From Daphnia pulex (Eukaryota; Arthropoda; Branchiopoda; Diplostraca; Daphniidae), in NCBI RefSeq assembly GCF_021134715.1, contig NC_060026.1, positions 14,871,001 to 14,935,000 on the forward strand: DNA of 64,000 bases. Direction: 5' to 3'. Below, piece after piece: positions 1,134-64,000 of the stretch; within the stretch, counting starts at the first letter, position 1; every line of letters starts with the position of its first letter. The translations under genes and the position numbers were made by a program. The notes below the pieces were generated by a model that was given only the letters and a program-made list of their open reading frames with translations, had not been told where the DNA came from and did no database searches.

Positions 1134-2450
1134 TCAAAGTGACGCGGCAATTTCCTCCTCCAACATGAAACCCGTGAAATGGGTGTAGTGGACATTGCTG
1201 AAGTCAACCAAATACGAGGATGAATCAGAAGAATAATAAATCGCCGCCCAGACTTGATCTCCTTTTTTCAAGTTCAGCGTCGACTGGAGGGTCAACGGAC
1301 TTGATTGAGCAACGGGGGCGTTATTCTCATGAACATAACTCGACCCGATTATTTCCCCGTTCAAATAAAGATGAGAATTAAACTGAACATCAGATGAAGA
1401 TTCAAGACGCGCCAGTCCCGTGAAAGATAACAAATAAATTCCCGGTCGCGGTGCCGTGAAGATCCCCGACGTCAAATCCATGGCGTTTCCCTCGTTTACC
1501 ACCTCCACATCGAACGGAATTCGAGTGTATGTTTTGTTAAATGGAGAACTTCTCTGGACGAAGAAATGGACGGGCGCCGATTTGACGTCGACGTATCCAA
1601 TCCATTTTTGGAAACCTTTTCAATCAATTAAAAAAAAAAAAAATAGATAATTGCAATTGATTAATTGGTGAGAATCTAAAACATTTACCCGCATCGTCAG
1701 GGAGTTTAGTGAAATCGCAGTAAACGGATTCCATCATCGCCGATCCCATGACGGAATAAAATCCGCTCCAGATGTGGCCAATGCTTTTGAGATCCGCGCA
1801 CGAAGACGGCAGTCCGTTAATGGAAACAACAGCCGATGGATTGTTGCTAATTGAAACAGAGTCGGTTGCTGCTGCTGTGCGTTCATTTTTTTCTCGTGAA
1901 AAACAAGTTTTAAAAAGCGAATCTTGTTGTTCAACTTTGGCCTCCAGTTTTCCTATTTTGACTTCCAATTGGACATTTTTGGCCTCTAATTGAATTACTT
2001 TCAATGCCAAATCTTGTCTTAGTTCATTCTATCATAGAAAACCAAAAGCGTTTACCCACATTGAATCATTAAATTAAACTAAACAGTAAGGACTTACATT
2101 TAGTTCGCCTTGCGACTCCAGTTGTGTCACTTTGGCCTGCAGTTCAATTGCTGTCGATTCCAAACTCTTCAGTTTTTCAACTTTGACCTCCAAACTTTTC
2201 ACGACTTGTGTCATTTGAATCTATTGGCAATAAATGGAATAACATTATTACAAAACATCAAAAATAACAAATTGAATCGAACTATTAACACAGAAGCATC
2301 ACGTGAAAATAAATTGTGATAATTAATTTCCTTTAATTGTAGGAATTCTTCCTCCAAGGAAAAGGCAGCGCCAGTCGAACTCGACGTCCAACAAATCAAA
2401 ACAAACAACAAAACAACTTGGGTGAGTGAAACTACAGAAAAATGCGCCAT
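1134..2450 (-). CDS. secreted C1q-domain protein, short paralogue
   Basis: Model: 2292-2450, 2098-2220, 1689-2028, 1134-1615 (367 aa). It has a signal peptide (MAHFSVVSLTQVVLLF...), then a heptad-rich coiled coil (LESTAIELQAKVTQLES, VIQLEAKNVQLEVKIGKLEAK), then a short fibrinogen-like stretch (LPSSCADLKSIGHIWSGFYS, ESVYCDF), then a C-terminal C1q/TNF-like jelly roll (IFTAPRPGIYLLSFTG, NLKKGD, HFTGFMLEEE). It is secreted, and the coiled coil probably drives trimerisation of the C1q head; C1q-like arthropod proteins often act as lectins. It is a close paralogue of the + strand gene at 47142-49218 but lacks that gene's central CNTNAP-like module. The exon 1 donor of the paralogue is destroyed here. 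I used a downstream GTGTTA donor at 2291 that keeps the frame and adds about ten residues. If that site is not used, the gene is damaged. Confidence 0.75.
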
Positions 2451-47141: not shown

Positions 47142-49218
47142 ATGGCCCATTTTTCTGTAGCCTCACTCACCCAAGTTGTTCTGCTGTTGGTTTTCATCTG
47201 CTGGACGCCGAGTTTGACTGGCGCTGCATTTTCCTTGGAGGACGAATTCCTACAACTGAAGGAAAATTATGTGAGAATAAATTTAAATTTCCTTTTCACG
47301 TGATGCTTTTGTTGTCGACCGTCCAATTCAATTTGTTACTTTTGATGTCTTATTGTTATGTTATTCCATTTATTGCCATTATAGATTCAAATGAAACAAC
47401 TCTTTGAATCGACAGCGATTGAACAGCAGGGAAAAGTGACACTACTGGAGGCCAAAGTGACACAACTGGAGTCGCAAGGCGAACTAAATGTAAGTCCTAT
47501 ACTTTTAAGTTTAATTCAGAGTTTCACCGTGGGTAAAACACTTTTTGTTTTCTATGACAGAATGAACTAAGACAAGATTTGGCATTGAAAGTAATTCAAC
47601 TAGAGGCAAAAAATGTCCAAATGGAAGTAAAAATTCAGGACCAAGAAAGAATTTTAACTTCCGTATTGAAAGCGGCTGAGCTTCCATTTTCCACTGATTC
47701 AAAATTATTTCCAGTTAAAAAAGAAATTTCAATTCGATCAACTGAAAAGAGTGGAATCCCAAGGACATGCAGACAACTTCAAGCGACTGATCCTTCACTT
47801 CCATCCGGAATGAATTGGATCGATCCGGACGGACAAGGTGTCGGCGATGACCCAATTTACGTTTACTGCGATATGACATCAGGTCCAATAATTAAATTTT
47901 CAATTAAAGAAAAATATAATCTGATTCCTTATCTTTCCATAAAAACAGGATCGACCTCAATTGTACACGATAGTGAATCTTCTTTAAATGTGGGACACTG
48001 CGCTGATGCCGGGTGCTTTTCCCGTTCCATCAACTACAATTCGTCAATCGGACAAATCAAAGCTTTAATTGAATTATCTACTGAATGCCACCAGTCGATT
48101 AGAGTCAGTTTCAGTTGATCAGTTTAATTCTTAACGTTTTAATTTTTATATCTACTACTAGTACGACTGCAACTTTGCCCCATTCGAGTTAAATGGCGTC
48201 GCCTATTCCTGGTGGAACGACAGAGAAGGAAATGCGCAATACTTTTGGGCCGGAAGTAACACGGACGGAGTTCACACCTGCCAGTGCGGAATCGATGCAA
48301 ATTGCGTCGATCCTGCGACGAAATGCAATTGCGATTCTCTTGCACCACTTCAATTAGTCGACGACGGTGTGTTACGGTTCCCACGTTTGTACAGAATTAA
48401 AATGAATACAATTAATTTTGTTTGCAGGTGTCATTACCGACAAAAATGTTCTGCCCGTCACTCGATTGAATTTCGGACGAACTCAACTGGAAACTTCATC
48501 CGGCGTCCACACCCTTGGCCGACTCGTGTGCACCGGATTAGTGACTTTGACTGGACTGCCAAAGTCGTGCCAAGATTTGTGGTTAATTGGCCACACCCTG
48601 AACGGATTTTATTCCGTCATGGGATCGGTGAAAATGGAATCCGTTTACTGCGATTTCACTAAACTTCCTGACGATGCGGGTAAATACTTGAGATTTATTC
48701 AGTTGGAATTATCTATTTTTTAATTCTGTAATTAATGAAAAGGTTTCCAGAAATGGATCGGATACGCCGACGTCAAATCGGCGCCCGTCCATTTCGACGT
48801 CCAGAGAAACGATTCATTTAACACAACTGGAACTCCGATTCCGTTTAAGTTGGCGGTGGTAAACGAGGGAAATGCCATGAATTTGACATCTGGAATATTC
48901 ACGGCACCGCGACCGGGAATTTATTTTTTCTCTTTCACGGGACTGGCGTACATTAAAGATTCATATTCTGTTGAGTTTCTTTCTTATCTTTATTTGAACA
49001 ATAATGTAATCGGGAGGAGTTATATTCAAGAGAATGAAAACCCCCTTGATCAAGTTAGTCCGTTGACCCTCCAGTCGACGCTGAACTTGAAAAAAGGCGA
49101 TCGAGTCTGGGTGGAGATTTCTTTTTCTGGTTCATCCTCGTATTTGTTTGACGACAGTCACCGCCACACCCGTTTCACGGGTTTCATGTTGGAAGAGGAA
49201 ATTGTGGCGTCATTTTGA
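47142..49218 (+). CDS. secreted C1q-domain protein with CNTNAP-like module, long paralogue
   Basis: Seven exons: 47142-47270, 47385-47489, 47561-47882, 47949-48103, 48162-48366, 48428-48679, 48743-49218 (547 aa). The order is signal peptide (VVLLLVFICWTPSLTGA), coiled coil, and a central module like the fibrinogen-like part of CNTNAP/neurexin-IV (YVYCDMTSGSTSIVHDSES, ALIELSTECHQSIRYDCNF, WWNDREGNAQYFWAG, CQCGI..NC). Then come the GVITDKNVLPVTRLNFGRTQ segment, the short fibrinogen-like piece shared with copy 1 (LVNWP or LWLIGH region, ESVYCDFTKLPDDAG), and the C1q head (GIFTAPRPGIYFFSFTG ... FTGFMLEEEIVASF). It is secreted and probably a trimeric recognition protein. It is a paralogue of 1134-2450 with intact exon 1 splicing and about 180 more residues. 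Confidence 0.85.
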
Positions 49219-55072: not shown

Positions 55073-55698
55073 ATGCATTACCAGGTAAATTCAATACAGC
55101 ATCCAAGTTAAATGTCCGTTTAACTTACATAACTGAATTTTTTCTAATAATTTCAACCTAAAATGTGCCTAAATAATAAAAGTGAATCACAATTATTTTT
55201 CGGATAATTTAATTTAGTTCGCCATCGTTCTTGTATTGGTCGGTGTTGGAGCTTTCGCTCAGCCGCAGTTACCTAAACCACCCGGTTACTCACCTGCTCC
55301 CCCGAAACCATACCCCACTCAAAGTTATGAGGTAACAAATCAGTTCAATCAGACCTTTTACCTGCAATGAAAATAATTATTCAAATTCAAATCAGCCGCT
55401 GATGCCGTACAGTTTCGGCTACGCTGTCAGCGACGGCCCTAGCTACAACAACTACGCCCATCAGGAGACGGCAGACACGAAAGCTGTAACCGGATCTTAC
55501 CGTGTTTCCTTGCCCGATGGCCGAACTCAGATCGTCACTTACAAGGCCGATGATAACGGATACGTCGCCAACGTCAAATACGAAGGACAGGCCAAGTATC
55601 CAGAGAATTACAGCAAACCGAAACCCGCCTACCAACCGGGCCCACCACCACCGCCGGCATACAAACCTGCAACTCCAATTAAACCTTACAAACCTTGA
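55073..55698 (+). CDS. Rebers-Riddiford cuticle protein
   Basis: Three exons: 55073-55084, 55218-55331, 55396-55698 (142 aa). The 12-bp first coding exon (MHYQ) splits the signal peptide with an intron, the usual arthropod cuticle-gene layout. The mature protein has a Pro-rich N-terminus (PKPPGYSPAPPKPYPTQ) and a chitin-binding R&R domain: YSFGYAVSDGPSYNNYAHQE, VTGSYRVSLPDGRTQIVTYK, ADDNGYVANVKYEG. A Pro/Lys tail (PPPPPAYKPATPIKPYKP) follows. It binds chitin in the exoskeleton. A TATA box lies upstream and aataaa at 55863. The RR subtype is not certain. Confidence 0.95.
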
Positions 55699-56000: not shown

Positions 56001-59000
56001 TCAAATAGAAAACCGGATGTAGGATTGTTTTCCATCTGGTGATTGGAGACGTTCCCAGTTGCTGATGTGGACATCAGTCCCATGTCGGATTTCGTCCCCT
56101 TCCGGCCAGTATATACGTTTACACTCGATTTCTTTTTCTGGATGATTGGCCACTGGATTGACAGCAACTGGTGGACTAGAGCAAACCACCTTCTTGGATG
56201 CGTTCGATTCCAAACCGAGTTCTTTATTTGCTGCATCCGCACAATGGTAGACGGAATAGAGAAAGAGCGAGGATTCGTTGAAAGACAATTCAATGCCGGC
56301 TATCATCTTTGGATCGTACAACATTCCCGATGGCAGGATTCTCTCAAAATCCAGGCTACGGTTAACGACAATCGCAGCAAAACCTTTGGTATTTTCTTGA
56401 TTATTTTCAGTTCGATTGTACACGAGCTCATAGTTTTCTGGTGCAAGCTTTTTCAAGCTGGAAACGTCATCTTGAATTATTCCTTGGATGAAAACGACTG
56501 CAGTGTTTCTGTTGTGAGGCTCCGACAACAAACCTCTTAAAGTATCGCGTAATCCTTCGTGGTTTATTTTCTTGAAATTAATCTGAATGCATTCGAGCTT
56601 CTGCCATGGACGATCCTGAATTTCTTTCCAAATATCTGTTGACGGTGGAGTAACTTGATGGCTTCTACTAATGATAATCACTTTCTTCTTCACAGCTGTG
56701 CCTTGGAGAATTTGGCGATAAACGAAACTATCGCCACTCTCGCAAACGATGATCAACAGTTTAGACGGTTTCAACTCCAGCGTCTTTTTCCATTGCTCCA
56801 TTTGATTCACATCGTTCATACGATTAGAAGAGACGACCAAATAACTGTCTTGTTGCTTGAAATCTCTCAGAGTCTCCAGTACCGAAAACACTTTGACTGC
56901 CGTACTTCCGGGCGAAGTTGAACTGACACCCAAGAAGCGCAGATTGTTTTTCTTAGTACGGCACAAGAATTGTTTTAGTTCATTAATCATTTGATTGTCC
57001 TTTAATTCGTGTTGGCAGTAAGCTTTGCGGAGGTGCTCCTGGTAATCGACAGAAAGTGTTGTTAAATTGATTGAGACCATAGTTTGTTCGGTATCTTCTA
57101 GTATCTTCATTCCATCTTCGGAGGAAAGAAACTTTTTGTAGGTTAAGTTCCACACCGATTGAAGCATGTGAAGGCCAAGTAACTTGAAATGTTGGCCCAC
57201 CTCTTTGATAAGAATTTGATCCAATTTCACTACGTTGGGCGTGTCAACAGCAAATAGAAGTTTATCGAAGAATTCATCAATGTCTTGGTATGTCACTCTT
57301 TGGGGTAGTAAATCAACTCGGGTGGCGGCGGTGGTTATTCCGCCAAACTTACTGCTCAGTTTGAATTTCCAATTTTTCAAGTCCGCCTCACCGCCCTTGA
57401 AGTTGCAGATAATTTGGCGCAGTTGCGTCGCTCCGGCTGATAAATTCACGGAATCTAAAAAATCTTCGTGAAATTTCTTCGTGTTCAAATCGACGACTCG
57501 TTCGTTGACTAAAGCGACGTGATAACGCTTGAAAACGTCTTGATTCAGCGGAATTACTTTGTTAAATTTACCGTGTTCACGTAACTTGTCGGCCAGCAAA
57601 TAAATATCCGACCAGTAATCACTGACCGTCACTTTCTGTCGCAAGTGCTCCGTAATTTTCAATTTGTAGCAAGCAGGTTTTTTACCTCTGGAGAAATTTT
57701 CGAAAGTCAAAATATCTTCGGGAGGGTTGACGGGCGCCAATCCAAGTCCATCCTTAATTAAACTGTTGACGTCTAAGCCAACGTTGGTACAAATAATGCA
57801 GTCCTTAATGTCTTCTCCCGTTCTCTTGATCTCCATGAACGATCGAAAATATTTCGCCAGACAGAAATCGCCTAAATTGCCGTTGAGCAGTTGAATTCCG
57901 GTAATTTTGAATGTCTCGTCTTGTTTATACTTGGCCTGTACAAACCGGTATCGCCACTTTGGTTTGTTATCCTTGGAAGTGTCGACTTGGTACTTGAAAA
58001 TCAAATCGTCAAATATGCCACCCAATTCAGACATTTGAGTTCCCAGTTCGAATTGGTATCCCTTGCGAATGCCACGAATCAAGAAAAGCATGAGCAATTT
58101 CGATTGGAATACATCACTGGCGTGCCTGATGGGTGTATGAACCAACGGACGTGAGTTCTGGCGCTTAACTGGACGAGGGTTGAGTTGCTTGACCTCTTTT
58201 GGGAAGTGCTCGGAAAGGATGTCTTTGACTTCCGGCCGTTTGTTGGGATCAACGGACAGCATTTTCAGTAGCAGTTGTTTCTAAGGGAAATTTAAATCGT
58301 GAATGTAAATTTGATTACATTTTAAAAGGTTCATTCTTACTATGTTGGCATCCTGCAATTTAGGTGGAAGCTGGAAGGACTTTAATCTGGAAATTAAATC
58401 TATGCGTTCAGAATCGGTTTTGAACGGACCCATTAGCAGTTCGAAGAGGATGATGGCCAAGGCATAGACGTCCACTTTGTGATTGTACGTATTGGATGAT
58501 TCCTGCTCCGGGGCCATGTAAGGTTTTGTGCCGATGTAGAGCGTTTGATTCAATCGATCAAATCCATCCCATTGTCTCCCTTCACTGCTTGTCGTCGGCG
58601 AACTTTCACCCGCTGTTATCCTTTTGCTCAATCCAAAATCTCCAACTTTGATCGACCAGTCGAAATTAAAGAAAATGTTACTTGGCTTTAGATCGCGGTG
58701 AACTAATTCCTGTATAGAATTTTAAAAATGGGCGTTAGTTATTATAAAATTATTACATAATGGATAGAATTACCAGACTATGTAGATACTTGACGGCTGA
58801 TAGAATTTCACGGTACATCTGGTGAACGTTTAATTCGACGGGCTTCCGGGTCTTCAACCACTTGGCTAGATTCTCTTCCCGACACAATTCCATCTGGATG
58901 TACAGGTAAATGTAGCTGCGACTTGTTTTCTTTGGCACCAGTTGCTCGGCAGCCATCGACACCAAACGGAATAATGAACTTCGCTGACGGGAACTCTGCT

Positions 59001-59710
59001 GATCAGTCGGCTCCGACGAGAACATTCCACTAGTTCTGCTCACACTTCTTTTTAAGTGCGATACAGATTGCTGTTCTTTCGGTTCTCTTGACCGAGATGG
59101 TGTAACGCTTGCATTTCCGTAGCGATCTTCCGCTTCTTTAATCCGTCTGGAATCGAAACTAGAAGCGTCGTCCGAATCAGCAGAGAAGTCCTCATCTGCG
59201 TATCCCTAAACACAAATAGTAGCTAGAAAGTAAATTCATATTATACTGGGAACTTTTTAATATATTCATGTATCCCTACCTCTGCTGCATCTTCCCATTC
59301 CGGCGGAGGATTATTCTCCCACCAGGCATTGTAGTAAAATACGATATTACGATGTTTTAATCCGGACAGCACCTATTTAGAAAACACATTTTAAAGGATG
59401 TAATTGAATTGTGGAATGAATTTTGATCTAAGTTTATTACTTCGACTTCTCTGGTGCTGAATTGTGCCATCTCTTCATCGTTGGCACTAAGTTTAATACA
59501 TTTGACGGCGAATTTCTTCTTCTCCATCTTCTTTTCAGCCACATAGACGTGACCGAAAGCCCCTTTGCTAAATAATTCGACATGATCGAACTCTTCCAGA
59601 AAACGGGACTCAGGTGACCTGTCCAGTGGTGGTCGGGAAAACAGCTGGTCTAGCGAAATCAGATCACTAAATGACAAAGAAGGTTTTTTGGTGATATTTG
59701 CGAAAGGCAT
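56001..59710 (-). CDS. eIF2alpha-kinase-like domain fused to nuclease-like and degenerate NACHT-like module
   Basis: Five exons: 59441-59710, 59280-59372, 58774-59205, 58341-58709, 56001-58280 (1147 aa). Residues about 40-410 are a PKR/PERK/HRI-type eIF2alpha kinase: Gly loop SKGAFGHVY, K70 in FAVK, GLKHRNIVFYYNAWWE, a Ser/acid-rich insert, YIQMELCREENLAKWLKTR, HRDLKPSN (H269-D271), DFG (289-291), YIGTKPYMAPEQ and DVYALAIILFELLMG. All catalytic residues are present. After a linker comes a block like Cap4/DUF4297 PD-(D/E)XK folds: RGIRKGYQFELG, GGIFDDLIFKYQ (D479/D480 region), RYRFVQAKYK (Q503-K505), DFCLAKYFRS. The rest (about 700-1147) resembles the NACHT region of arthropod STAND proteins but the P-loop is degenerate (LGVSSTSPGSTAVKV lacks GK[ST]); SKLLIIVCESGD and KKKVIIISRSH recall Walker B and sensor motifs. 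The C-terminal module is all in one 2.28-kb exon. I start at the first ATG in frame (59710). The kinase call is firm; the module calls are inference. Confidence 0.85.
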
Positions 59711-60564: not shown

Positions 60565-62532
60565 TCAGTTAATTGTCCATTCCATTTGATTCCGATTGAG
60601 AGTTGGCTGACTCTTTGGAAGTTTGCCACCAGGATCCCATACCGATTGGTGTGTGTTGGAATCTTCTTCAATGTCCTTTAACACAAGAATATTTTTTAGT
60701 AGATGTGAAACGATTTTGTTTGGTACCTGGGTTAACGAATAAGAGAACAGCAACTGGTTGATGAGATGTTCTTCTATACTTGGTAACCTTGAGATGCGTT
60801 TAGGAGCTGGTTTTACTGGCTCCAAGCGCTTCCGTTTCATTGAGTTTTGTTGATTGGCCAATTCCGGAAGAATTGCTGCTTGACTGCACGGCGATCTGAA
60901 CTTCGGAATGATTTCTTGGTTGCTTTCTACGTTTGTTGAATTGACAAATGCAGCGGCTTCTTGAGGATTTTCTTTCGAAGCTTCCTGGATTTCTGGCGAC
61001 GATGATAAATTTCCAGAAGAAGAGAAGTTGGTTTGTTTAAGTTGACTCGGAAAAGAGTTAAGTGTTTCCAGCGATGCAGCTGGCCTTCCCGAGGGGAAAA
61101 AAAGAAAGGTAGGAATATCCTTTTCTTTGGAGCCGGCTGGCGGAATCCTAATAATTGAATCTTTAGTTTTTAGACAATTGAATGTGTCAGGAACTTCTGC
61201 TTGATAAGTAGGAGTTTCTTGATGACTAAGAGAGTGAGGAGCTTCTGCCGGATTGGCTGGAGCTTTTTGAAGATTGAGAGTACCAGGAGCTTCTGCCGGA
61301 GTAGCTGGAGCTTCTAGAATAATGAGAGGACGAGGAGCTTCTGCCGGAGTAGCTGGAGCTTCTTGAATATTGAGTGTGCAAGCAGTTTTTTCGTTGCTAG
61401 AGGAGCTCAAGAGATTTTTGGACTCCATTGCATCTACACCATCTAAGTTTGCAAATTTGAGGTTAGTTGCTTTCAGCTCGTCTTCAAACCTTTTTTCGTC
61501 TTTGTTTCCACTGGATTTGACCGGAATATCTGAGATTGATAGCCCTTTTTTTGGTCGTTGTTGGAGACTGGCTGTTCCAGGCTCCTTTTCCATCGGGACT
61601 TCTTTTGACTGGGCTGATTTGACGTTTTGGTCGCTGTAGCAACTTTTCGCGTTCGATGATGTGATTTTTTCTGCTCCATCCAGTTTTGCTGAGTTTTCTA
61701 ACTTTGAAACAAAGGAATTATTTTCTTTTATTTCGTTCCTTTCAAACCTTTTTTTGTCGGGATATCCGTCTGGCCCATCCGGAGAATCCGAGAGTGAGTC
61801 TCCTTTTTTCGGTGGGTGAGGGAGACTGGCCGTTCCAGTCTCTTTTTCTTCCGTCTGGATATTTTCTTTTGACTGGTATGAAGGGGTGTTTTGAAAACTA
61901 CAGCTTGTTGTCGTAAGCGACGACACTTCTAGTGGAGTTGGGTTTGGCACTAATACTGCTGCAAATTGAGATGTTGAGAGGGTTTTGAGAATTGACTCTA
62001 TTACTGGATTTGTTTGAGAAGCTGGCTCCTGAGAAGCTGTTGGTGATAAGTTGACATCTCCTGGAGCGACGGGCACTGAATAGGCTGTTGAGATGGCTGC
62101 GATCACCTGACTGATTATGTCCCGATTGAGTTGTGCTTGGGTTGCTGCCTGGTGTTGGAGAATTTGGAGCATTCTTTCTCTGTCCTTCTCCCATTCTTCG
62201 TCATCTGCTTCCTTTTCGAGTTTGTCTAACCATTCTCTTCGTTTTTTCTTTAAGATGTGAATTTTGGCGACAATAACATCGTCCATTGTTTGGTACATGG
62301 TGTCGATGTCTGCATTGATCTCTTCTTGGTCTTCGCCTTCTTTGTACATTTCAGCCTGGACCCTTTTTGAGAATATCTCATAAGTTTTGTAGAATCCATC
62401 TAGCTTTTTTTCTAATTTTTCGACTTCGATAAACGCTTCCAACGTCATTTCTGTTGATTTGTACGTTTCGACGAGGTTAATGATACGGGTGATATGCTTT
62501 TTAATTAAAGTTCTTGCGTAATTTGGAGCCAT
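60565..62532 (-). CDS. gag-like protein of LTR retroelement
   Basis: Uninterrupted ORF of 655 codons. Residues about 8-110 are a charged helical region (TLIKKHITRIINLVETY, EVEKLEKKLDGFYKTYEIF, LDKLEKEADDEEWEKDRERM) like the DUF1759 start of BEL/Pao Gag. The rest is Ser/Pro/Glu-rich and holds two internal duplications: a pair of SKE...ETGTASL...PPKKG...KKRFE blocks (about 220-270 and 300-350), and three EAPATPAEAP-type repeats (about 390-440). There is no zinc knuckle or protease motif. The long open frame with no stop means it is young or still selected. It could be a domesticated gag; the adjacent LTR favours a mobile element. Confidence 0.65.
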   Translation of the reverse strand: MAPNYARTLIKKHITRIINLVETYKSTEMTLEAFIEVEKLEKKLDGFYKTYEIFSKRVQAEMYKEGEDQEEINADIDTMYQTMDDVIVAKIHILKKKRREWLDKLEKEADDEEWEKDRERMLQILQHQAATQAQLNRDIISQVIAAISTAYSVPVAPGDVNLSPTASQEPASQTNPVIESILKTLSTSQFAAVLVPNPTPLEVSSLTTTSCSFQNTPSYQSKENIQTEEKETGTASLPHPPKKGDSLSDSPDGPDGYPDKKRFERNEIKENNSFVSKLENSAKLDGAEKITSSNAKSCYSDQNVKSAQSKEVPMEKEPGTASLQQRPKKGLSISDIPVKSSGNKDEKRFEDELKATNLKFANLDGVDAMESKNLLSSSSNEKTACTLNIQEAPATPAEAPRPLIILEAPATPAEAPGTLNLQKAPANPAEAPHSLSHQETPTYQAEVPDTFNCLKTKDSIIRIPPAGSKEKDIPTFLFFPSGRPAASLETLNSFPSQLKQTNFSSSGNLSSSPEIQEASKENPQEAAAFVNSTNVESNQEIIPKFRSPCSQAAILPELANQQNSMKRKRLEPVKPAPKRISRLPSIEEHLINQLLFSYSLTQVPNKIVSHLLKNILVLKDIEEDSNTHQSVWDPGGKLPKSQPTLNRNQMEWTIN

Positions 62533-64000
62533 TGTGAGTTGGAGGTGGCTCCTAAGGAGCTGCTGAGAGTACGAAAAGAAGATAATTAGTTTAAATTAAT
62601 GTTTTGATTAAGTTGATTAGCCTTTTTGTTTGTTGTTCTGCTCGGTCTTCGGAGATTCGTGGTGCCGAATTAAATTCTGCTGTCTTTTCCACTTTCTTTG
62701 AATTCCTTTATGTGAAGATATCTGCAAAAACTGAATGATTTTGGAGCTAGGGTAATTTTCTAGCTCCTTACAATCCCACAAACGGCATAATAACAATTTT
62801 TTAGGAAAGAGAATTTAAAGAGTTTTTGCCGCAAGACGGCGGTTTCTAATTCCCAATTTTGTGCTCAGAGGGCGCTTTGTGCCTTCTCAGAAAAAGAGAA
62901 AGATTTCCCTTTAAGCAAACAAAAAATGCGAGAGCGTAAGAGCGCGAGATTTGTTTCGAAATGGCGGAAGGCCTTTGTAAATAGAGAGAGAGAAAAAAAA
63001 TTCAAGTTTTAATCACCCTAAGGCGCACACGAGGCGAACGCGTTGAAAGGGTAGAGAATTTTCCCGCGTTTTTTCCAGTTTAAAGGGGAAACCGGCCTAG
63101 CCCCCCAAAAAAGAGAATATTTTTCTGTCGTATTTAGAGAGATCGTTGTGCCTTCTGAGACAGAGAGAGATTTACCCAAATGATTGAATAACAAACAATG
63201 CAAATTAATTCAAAAAATGAGAGAGATTTGTTTTCGGGAAATGGTCTAAGGCCATAGCAAAGAGAGCGATAATTTATTTAAGTCTTTTCACCCTGGGGCT
63301 CACACGAGGCGAACTCATTGAAGGGTTAGAGAAGTTCCCGCGTTTTCCCAATCTAAGAGGTAGGGAAGCAAGCCCCCCCAAAAAAAAATTCTTGAAAGGA
63401 AAGAGATTCCCGCGTTATCCCATTTTTAAAGAACGGGCAGTGAACCCAATCAGCTGAGATTCGTTTTTACAATGCCGGGAGGCGTATCAAGAGATAGAGA
63501 GGGAATTTAACCTAAGGCTCACACGAGGTGAACACGTTAAAGAGGTAGGGAAGTTCCCAAGTTTGCCCAATCTTAGATATTGGAAAGCAATATCCCCCCA
63601 AAAAAAAAAAATTTGTTGAAAGGGAAGAGAGAATAATCAACTTAGGCGATGATAATTTACGTGACAAAAAAAGAAATCCCCCTTCAAAAATGATTTAGGA
63701 ATCCTATTTTAATTTTAAGAAACTTTGAGGAAATATTTTAGCTTTAATTCAAGAGAGAGAAGAAAAATAATTTACTGTTTAGAGGGATCTATTTGCTTAC
63801 TAGACCCCTGAGAACAAGTTAAACTCAGAGAGAGAGAAAAAGATTCTAATAAATGACTGACCTGCCATAATTAAACACAATTTTCTTTGATAAATGGCGG
63901 CAATGATTAAGCAAAAGGAGATAACGAGAGAAAGATTTGAGTGTGATAGAGCGAAACTAACTTAACACTGGTTGGAGAAAACTCCGGTTCGAAGGACCAT
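62533..64000 (-). repeat. retroelement leader with three tandem-like repeat units
   Basis: On the + strand a unit recurs at about 63020, 63297 and 63517: 'c.cacgaggcgaac', 'gttgaaa.gg.tagagaa', 'ttcccgcgtttt', then a C run followed by an A run. It is rich in gagagaga tracts. No gene is seen. It is the leader upstream of the gag-like ORF. Confidence 0.6.

Follow-up and report, generated by a model that had tools for sequence, protein, structure and literature searches.

An eIF2-alpha kinase gene of Daphnia pulex that continues in frame into the nuclease-like front end of a NACHT gene family

The window analyzed here, a 64,000-nucleotide stretch of Daphnia pulex DNA (contig NC_060026.1, positions 14,871,001 to 14,935,000), carries on its minus strand, at 59710-56001, a kinase-REase fusion gene of five exons and 1,147 amino acids according to predicted splicing. 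A preliminary description of the locus had given its limits as 56001..59710, and these coincide exactly with an ATG and a stop codon. All four introns are GT-AG and in phase 0 at the predicted splice sites. What follows the kinase, all of it in exon 5, is referred to below as the module. The exons and domains are as follows.

59441..59710, minus strand: exon 1, residues 1-90; N terminus and kinase N-lobe, with the Gly loop (48-55) and K70
59280..59372, minus strand: exon 2, residues 91-121; kinase, with NAWWE
58774..59205, minus strand: exon 3, residues 122-265; acidic/serine-rich kinase insert and LYIQMELC
58341..58709, minus strand: exon 4, residues 266-388; HRD, DFG, activation loop, APEQ, and the alpha-G motif FKTDSER
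58280-56001, minus strand: exon 5, 2,280 bp; end of the C-lobe and the entire module
58206..58280, minus strand: final segment of the kinase C-lobe, residues 389-413, joined to the module within exon 5
57723..58118, minus strand: predicted PD-(D/E)XK (Tox-REase-8/Cap4-like) domain, residues 443-574, with Q447, D479-D480, and Q503-x-K505
56958..57290, minus strand: helical domain common to the paralogs, residues 719-829
56523..56957, minus strand: alpha/beta middle domain without a P-loop, putatively STAND/AAA-like, residues 830-974
56001..56522, minus strand: C-terminal tail and stop, residues 975-1147, where family homology fades

The motif positions in the preliminary description were accurate (SKGAFGHV at 48-55, K70, NAWWE from 105, HRD from 269, DFG from 289, APEQ ending at 334, FDD at 478-480, and QAK at 503-505). 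Its proposal that kinase and module form one polypeptide holds at the DNA level, with the end of the C-lobe and the module lying in one exon. The junction was misplaced, however: the intron at 58281-58340 cuts within the kinase. Because residues 389-413 run in frame and unbroken into the module in exon 5, the fusion is independent of any splice call at a junction. A stop-free run of 760 codons from a given start would arise by chance with a probability of ~1e-22 under a single-base model with the local base composition. Three of the four introns match places in the nearest related kinase of the genome (the sister kinase, described below; predicted splice sites), and at least two have counterparts in the PERK of this genome, a third counterpart there resting on an alignment read by eye. 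The stretch from the upstream in-frame stop to the ATG is free of AG dinucleotides, which makes a longer, spliced N terminus unlikely. No second copy of the module was found within the window. On this sequence evidence, the fusion is confirmed as real and is firmer than the preliminary description had it.

The kinase half is, by sequence, an intact eIF2-alpha kinase, as had been proposed. Its best PDB sequence match is PERK (3.6e-54), and among the best 19 of the 2,439 PDB sequences matched (E 0.001), 17 are named PERK, GCN2, HRI, or PKR; the remaining two (9bf3 and 1zxe) bear generic kinase names and rank among GCN2 entries. It retains intact catalytic residues (K, HRD, and DFG), the GT of the activation loop, and the alpha-G signature. 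The protein resembles PERK, GCN2, HRI, and PKR throughout the kinase domain, including the insert, HRDLKPSN, GTxxYMxPEQ, and the alpha-G signature, but differs from them in that the candidate regulatory part is C-terminal and in that a lumenal sensor or dsRNA-binding part is lacking. The kinase starts after just 34 residues, and with no upstream acceptor AG available there is no space for either part. On this ground of length, a PERK-type lumenal sensor with its transmembrane segment is judged absent ahead of the kinase; Pfam called no dsRNA-binding domain in exons 3 to 5, the part of the gene scanned for one. The kinase is 33% identical (119/360) to the genome's own PERK. Orthology to PERK, PKR, or GCN2 was rejected.

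In a study of this kinase family (PMC2291453), dimerization is described as essential for eIF2-alpha kinases, and the Arg262/Asp266 salt bridge of the PKR dimer is described as mattering in GCN2 and PERK as well, although it is missing in 11 of 31 PKR/PKZ sequences. By inspection, the corresponding places here are R36 and E40. Since the Asp is a Glu in this protein and the bridge is missing in 11 of the 31 sequences reported there, it is weak evidence either way.

For the nuclease-like (REase) domain, residues 443-574, an AlphaFold (AF2) model of the protein was built on a 14-row alignment (mean pLDDT, 66.6; pTM, 0.56); a model from the single sequence was uninformative (pLDDT, 36.8). The modeled domain runs helix, three strands, helix, strand, with block means of 71 to 90 pLDDT save for one loop at 46. 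Foldseek returned 744 PDB matches at E of ≤10, and only 2 of them, both Cap4, were below 0.001 (7.1e-4 and 9.4e-4). The Cap4 matches (6wan, 7.1e-4; 7yib, 1.3e-3) have TM scores of about 0.15 to 0.3 and an rmsd of 23 to 25 over the aligned stretch; with an rmsd of about 24 and a TM score of about 0.2, Cap4 fits in part only. MspJI came next, with four chains aligned over 121 to 126 columns (rmsd, 4.9 to 7.0; probability, 0.99 to 1.00; E, 2.9e-3 to 5.1e-3). The Foldseek output carries no ranges, and we place the Cap4 and MspJI matches on the REase part from their lengths and order. A fold search of BFVD gave nothing below 1e-3. The modeled core, whose best fold matches include Cap4 and MspJI, agrees in kind with the alpha/beta PD-(D/E)XK core that had been anticipated. 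Of the Cap4/DUF4297 assignment made at the same time, the Cap4-like fold stands as a prediction and DUF4297 does not: a Pfam scan of 12 domain sequences gave no match to that family, and we rejected it as a sequence assignment. Cap4 is a CBASS effector that combines an REase domain with a SAVED domain; the likeness here is that Cap4 entries are the top PDB fold matches of the modeled protein, and the difference is that there is no sequence match and no evidence of a SAVED domain.

The nearest named family that fits the sequence is Tox-REase-8 rather than DUF4297. A 2012 paper (PMC3482391) gives the Tox-REase-8 motifs as GxxxQ, DD, and QxK and records the family in Wolbachia, Amoebophilus, Daphnia, mosquitoes, ants, beetles, and Trichoplax; it is the single paper in which we found the term among open-access full texts. 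By that definition, the motif is present here as Q447, D479-D480, and Q503-x-K505, with Ser at the leading Gly. The domain would share with Tox-REase-8 these motifs and the modeled REase fold; compared with the family as described there, this protein has a fused kinase and Ser at position 443, and no ankyrin array was found in it. The link is a comparison of motifs; a sequence relation to symbiont copies of the family may be indicated by the phrog_9049 match and the identity to bacterial proteins given below.

Q447, D479-D480, Q503, and K505 are kept, and D480, Q503, and K505 are identical in all 14 rows. The kinase-REase protein departs from the other 13 rows at two positions that are fixed in them (G443S and E470Q); a third, 506, is Tyr here but His in 11 of the 13 and Ser in 2. 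With the core intact but three fixed or nearly fixed residues changed, cleavage is possible.

A search of the genome (133,188,837 bases in 13 contigs) with exon 5 gave at least 20 matches at E of 0.001, and one with the nuclease domain of a paralog gave at least 21 at E of 0.01. These matches amount to 12 intact copies, including the kinase-REase gene, plus fragments. Ten of the other 11 lie at 0.9 to 3.3 Mb on contig C10, where the kinase-REase gene lies at 14.9 Mb, and one lies on C2. Of the 12, one carries a fused kinase: kinase residues 1 to 402 had no match in 12 paralog loci (9.9 kb each, including the fragment L038), and the kinase match present at one of them (L030) starts at residue 403. 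L038, which has a stop within its REase part, was dropped from all alignments, and L044 (masked letters) and L045 (partial) were omitted from A3 and from the tree. The paralogs have open frames of more than 1,900 residues in 9 of 11 cases and about 1,290 in the other two, and they run from the nuclease domain through a helical domain and an alpha/beta middle domain without a P-loop to a NACHT domain. Pfam, run on 4 of the 11, called the NACHT as PF05729 in all 4 (1.3e-9 to 2.9e-12) and gave weak ankyrin matches after it in 3, all under the cutoff. Walker A and B (DGFDE) are intact in all 11.

These paralogs change the interpretation of the long region downstream of the REase domain, which had been described as STAND-like with a broken P-loop. 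The supposed broken loop, GVSSTSPGST (residues 839-848), aligns to the middle domain, which is without a P-loop in all 13 relatives aligned. A STAND/AAA-like fold is still suggested, but the region is not the NACHT of the family. The modeled order of strands and helices in the middle domain suggests a STAND/AAA-like fold without a nucleotide-binding motif, as do its Foldseek matches to the NB-ARC domain of NRC1 (123 columns; E, 4.1e-3; probability, 1.00) and, at lower strength, to ORC and NSF; we infer this assignment from the model. Walker A and B motifs of a NACHT/STAND NTPase are absent from the kinase-REase protein, and the NACHT and ankyrin parts of the paralogs had no match anywhere in the window at E of 0.01. 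By sequence comparison with its paralogs, the gene is missing its true NACHT rather than carrying a degenerate one. We rejected decay of the NACHT by point change. Residues 994 to 1049 have a weak match (E, 0.008; 34% over 59 columns) in the paralog L029, immediately beyond its NACHT, so the NACHT may have been lost by internal deletion rather than by a simple cut.

The REase domain is 45 to 58% identical to those of the paralogs. Averaged over the 11 paralogs, its identity is 50.0%, compared to 53.6% among the paralogs themselves; the values are 31.4% and 41.5% for the helical domain and 27.7% and 38.8% for the middle domain. The REase part seems, from these identities, to be what selection keeps, since it is near the level seen between paralogs while the helical and middle domains have fallen further. 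The drift pattern is not unique: the NACHT-bearing paralog L031 has 28.2% in the middle domain and 33.4% in the helical domain, and helical identity is also low in L027 (34.5%) and L032 (31.1%). In a tree of 14 sequences, no terminal branch is longer than that of the kinase-REase gene (0.871), and none of the other sequences is well supported as its sister.

Outside animals, a profile of the 12 domains matched 4 of 16 genomes from the order of Rickettsiella massiliensis (2.7e-33, 6.0e-31, 2.2e-12, and 1.4e-5); R. massiliensis itself had no REase match at E of 0.001. None of 398 genomes drawn across the same phylum matched, and the bacterial link therefore rests on one order. Two of the bacterial proteins from that order, L042 and L043, are 42% identical to the REase domain and are encoded by giant open frames (2,752 and 1,829 amino acids) in which ankyrin repeats (Ank_5 or Ank) are followed by the nuclease, the middle domain, and a motif resembling a P-loop, which in L043 is altered. 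Their order from REase to P-loop is that of the REase-to-NACHT part of the animal paralogs, which argues that the front end, beyond the nuclease alone, is common to bacteria and animal; Pfam called no NACHT in the cut fragments of the two. The REase domain also matches phrog_9049 (1.5e-9), as do three giant proteins of phage WO (WOVitA1), which match another part of the profile, so that the region matched by the domain is not covered by their best stretches. Homologues of the phage WO NACHT region are recorded in arthropods and crustaceans, including Daphnia, in an earlier report (PMC5062602). The present gene resembles such NACHT genes in that its REase domain and the giant phage WO proteins both match phrog_9049, and differs in that it has lost the NACHT and gained a kinase. 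As a separate observation, R. massiliensis L005 10001-14259 is 39% identical (best segment) to the first 1,000 residues of ADW80187, a phage WO giant protein that corresponds to gwv_1093 in KX522565.

Other searches gave no further relatives. Pfam searches of 12 family members matched five families in one member each (best, Phage_TAC_4, 4.2e-4). Neither Pfam nor PADLOC gave a useful match to the module itself, and the single matches in NCBIfam (0.03), PDB sequences (0.91), and phages are attributable to chance, as are two E. coli plasmid matches (E, 0.4), which were dismissed after that region was read. No useful match was obtained in viral contigs with the module or a symbiont query, in genome contigs with a single REase domain, or in phages and plasmids with L042; viral contigs had no match to a phage WO protein. 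BLASTP of the module against two WOVitA1 giant proteins was negative, as was a search of the whole WOVitA1 record.

The sister kinase, the nearest kinase in the genome, lies at C10:16132213-16134420 (L039:4214-6421), 1.2 Mb from the kinase-REase gene. The two kinases are 46% identical (186/404); three introns, all in phase 0, are common to both, as is the N-terminal motif PSLxFSxL. In the sister kinase, DFG is DLG, and the frame continues into a Ras/Rab domain (PF00071, 1.1e-28) by predicted splicing from a weak GTTCAA donor; the GTPase frame has no ATG ahead of its P-loop, which favors a true Rab-like fusion. The genome's PERK is 49% identical to the sister kinase. On these comparisons, both cytosolic kinases look like PERK-related duplicates that acquired different C-terminal domains.

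PERK, PKR, GCN2, and HRI each have known regulatory parts, and those parts are absent here; the front end of an REase-helical-middle-NACHT gene would take their place. Since nothing else in the protein would serve as an input, the module at the C-terminal end is the obvious candidate for the switch. We hypothesize that the gene encodes a cytosolic eIF2-alpha kinase in which the REase front end is a regulatory input leading to dimerization and translation arrest, and we put this reading at slightly short of an even chance. The nuclease-like domain would be engaged by its ligand, which could be foreign nucleic acid, a same-family protein from a symbiont, or an oligomer formed by the NACHT paralogs with which the gene has this front end in common, and binding would draw the kinase domains together; these would dimerize and autophosphorylate, and the activated kinase would phosphorylate eIF2-alpha and so arrest translation. 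The ligand, the dimerization, the substrate, and a role in defense are the conjectural parts of this scheme. Its starting points, namely, the DNA-level fusion, the intact kinase residues, the intact core motif within the modeled REase fold, and the loss of the NACHT, are described above. That the sister kinase apparently also has a swapped C-terminal domain supports the reading of the module as a regulatory input.

The module could instead be a second effector arm, with kinase and nuclease both catalytically active in a protein that arrests translation and also cuts nucleic acid. The invariance of D480, Q503, and K505, the retention of Q447, and the modeled REase-type core with its Cap4 and MspJI matches all favor such an effector, but the G443S, E470Q, and H506Y changes do not, nor does the loss of a NACHT that presumably gates the nuclease in the paralogs, and we consider two active arms unlikely. 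The same three changes and the same loss would suit a dead REase kept as a bait or homotypic interface, with the kinase as the sole output. Such a decoy or adaptor would mimic symbiont-type proteins or join oligomers of the NACHT paralogs, and the occurrence of the domain in 4 of the 16 Rickettsiella-order genomes, with the same layout in two, is in keeping with this. A dead bait would have no need of the D-QxK core, however, which is fully kept, and R. massiliensis itself lacks a match; we judge this reading unlikely. If the module were a mere passenger from a recent chance fusion, already in decay beside a kinase that works alone, the longest terminal branch in the tree, the missing NACHT, and an end of the model mostly at pLDDT of <50 would be accounted for. 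A 2,280-bp exon without a stop or frameshift and an REase identity near the level between paralogs are not what decay would leave, and we regard it as improbable. That two adjacent genes have been joined by an error of assembly or annotation is highly improbable, given the single open exon that holds the C-lobe end and the module and the recurrence of three intron places in the sister kinase.

One gene here combines a kinase with a nuclease-like domain that the genome otherwise has in immune-receptor-like genes, a type shared with bacteria associated with arthropods, and this suggests an unusual translation-stopping sensor. To our knowledge, the eIF2-alpha kinases of animals fall into four types, and we know of no PKR or interferon in the Daphnia lineage. 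Four such kinases are counted in vertebrates in a published account (PMC5025754). A bolder interpretation, which we consider doubtful, is that this is a fifth, immune type, in which the front end of a nuclease-NACHT gene that intracellular symbionts also have was captured by an arthropod and wired to translation arrest, alongside a Rab-switched sister; the REase domain would bind, and perhaps cut, nucleic acid or effectors of symbionts and thereby switch the kinase on directly. Were this so, the integrated stress response would have a new input in a lineage without PKR or interferon, a cytosolic PERK-like kinase would have as its regulatory part a nuclease module drawn from the repertoire of bacteria-animal conflict, and one gene, open to experiment in a tractable animal, would link anti-phage-type nucleases to translation arrest. 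No paper on a kinase-REase fusion was found among the best-ranked matches in open-access full texts, a collection that leaves out most subscription papers, so that this is weak evidence of absence.

Several other features lie in the window. An open frame at 55336-55698 (plus strand), which we take to be cuticle-protein-like, converges on the kinase-REase gene and ends ~300 bases from its stop. An open frame of 676 codons at 60565-62595, on the minus strand, contains a tandem repeat with a 48-base unit (61237-61374); Pfam gave it no family above the cutoff. Finally, two similar gene regions with NELRQDLALKVIQLEAKNVQ, each with what is presumably a C1q-like end, lie ~46 kb apart on opposite strands, at 1134-2028 (minus) and 47558-49218 (plus).
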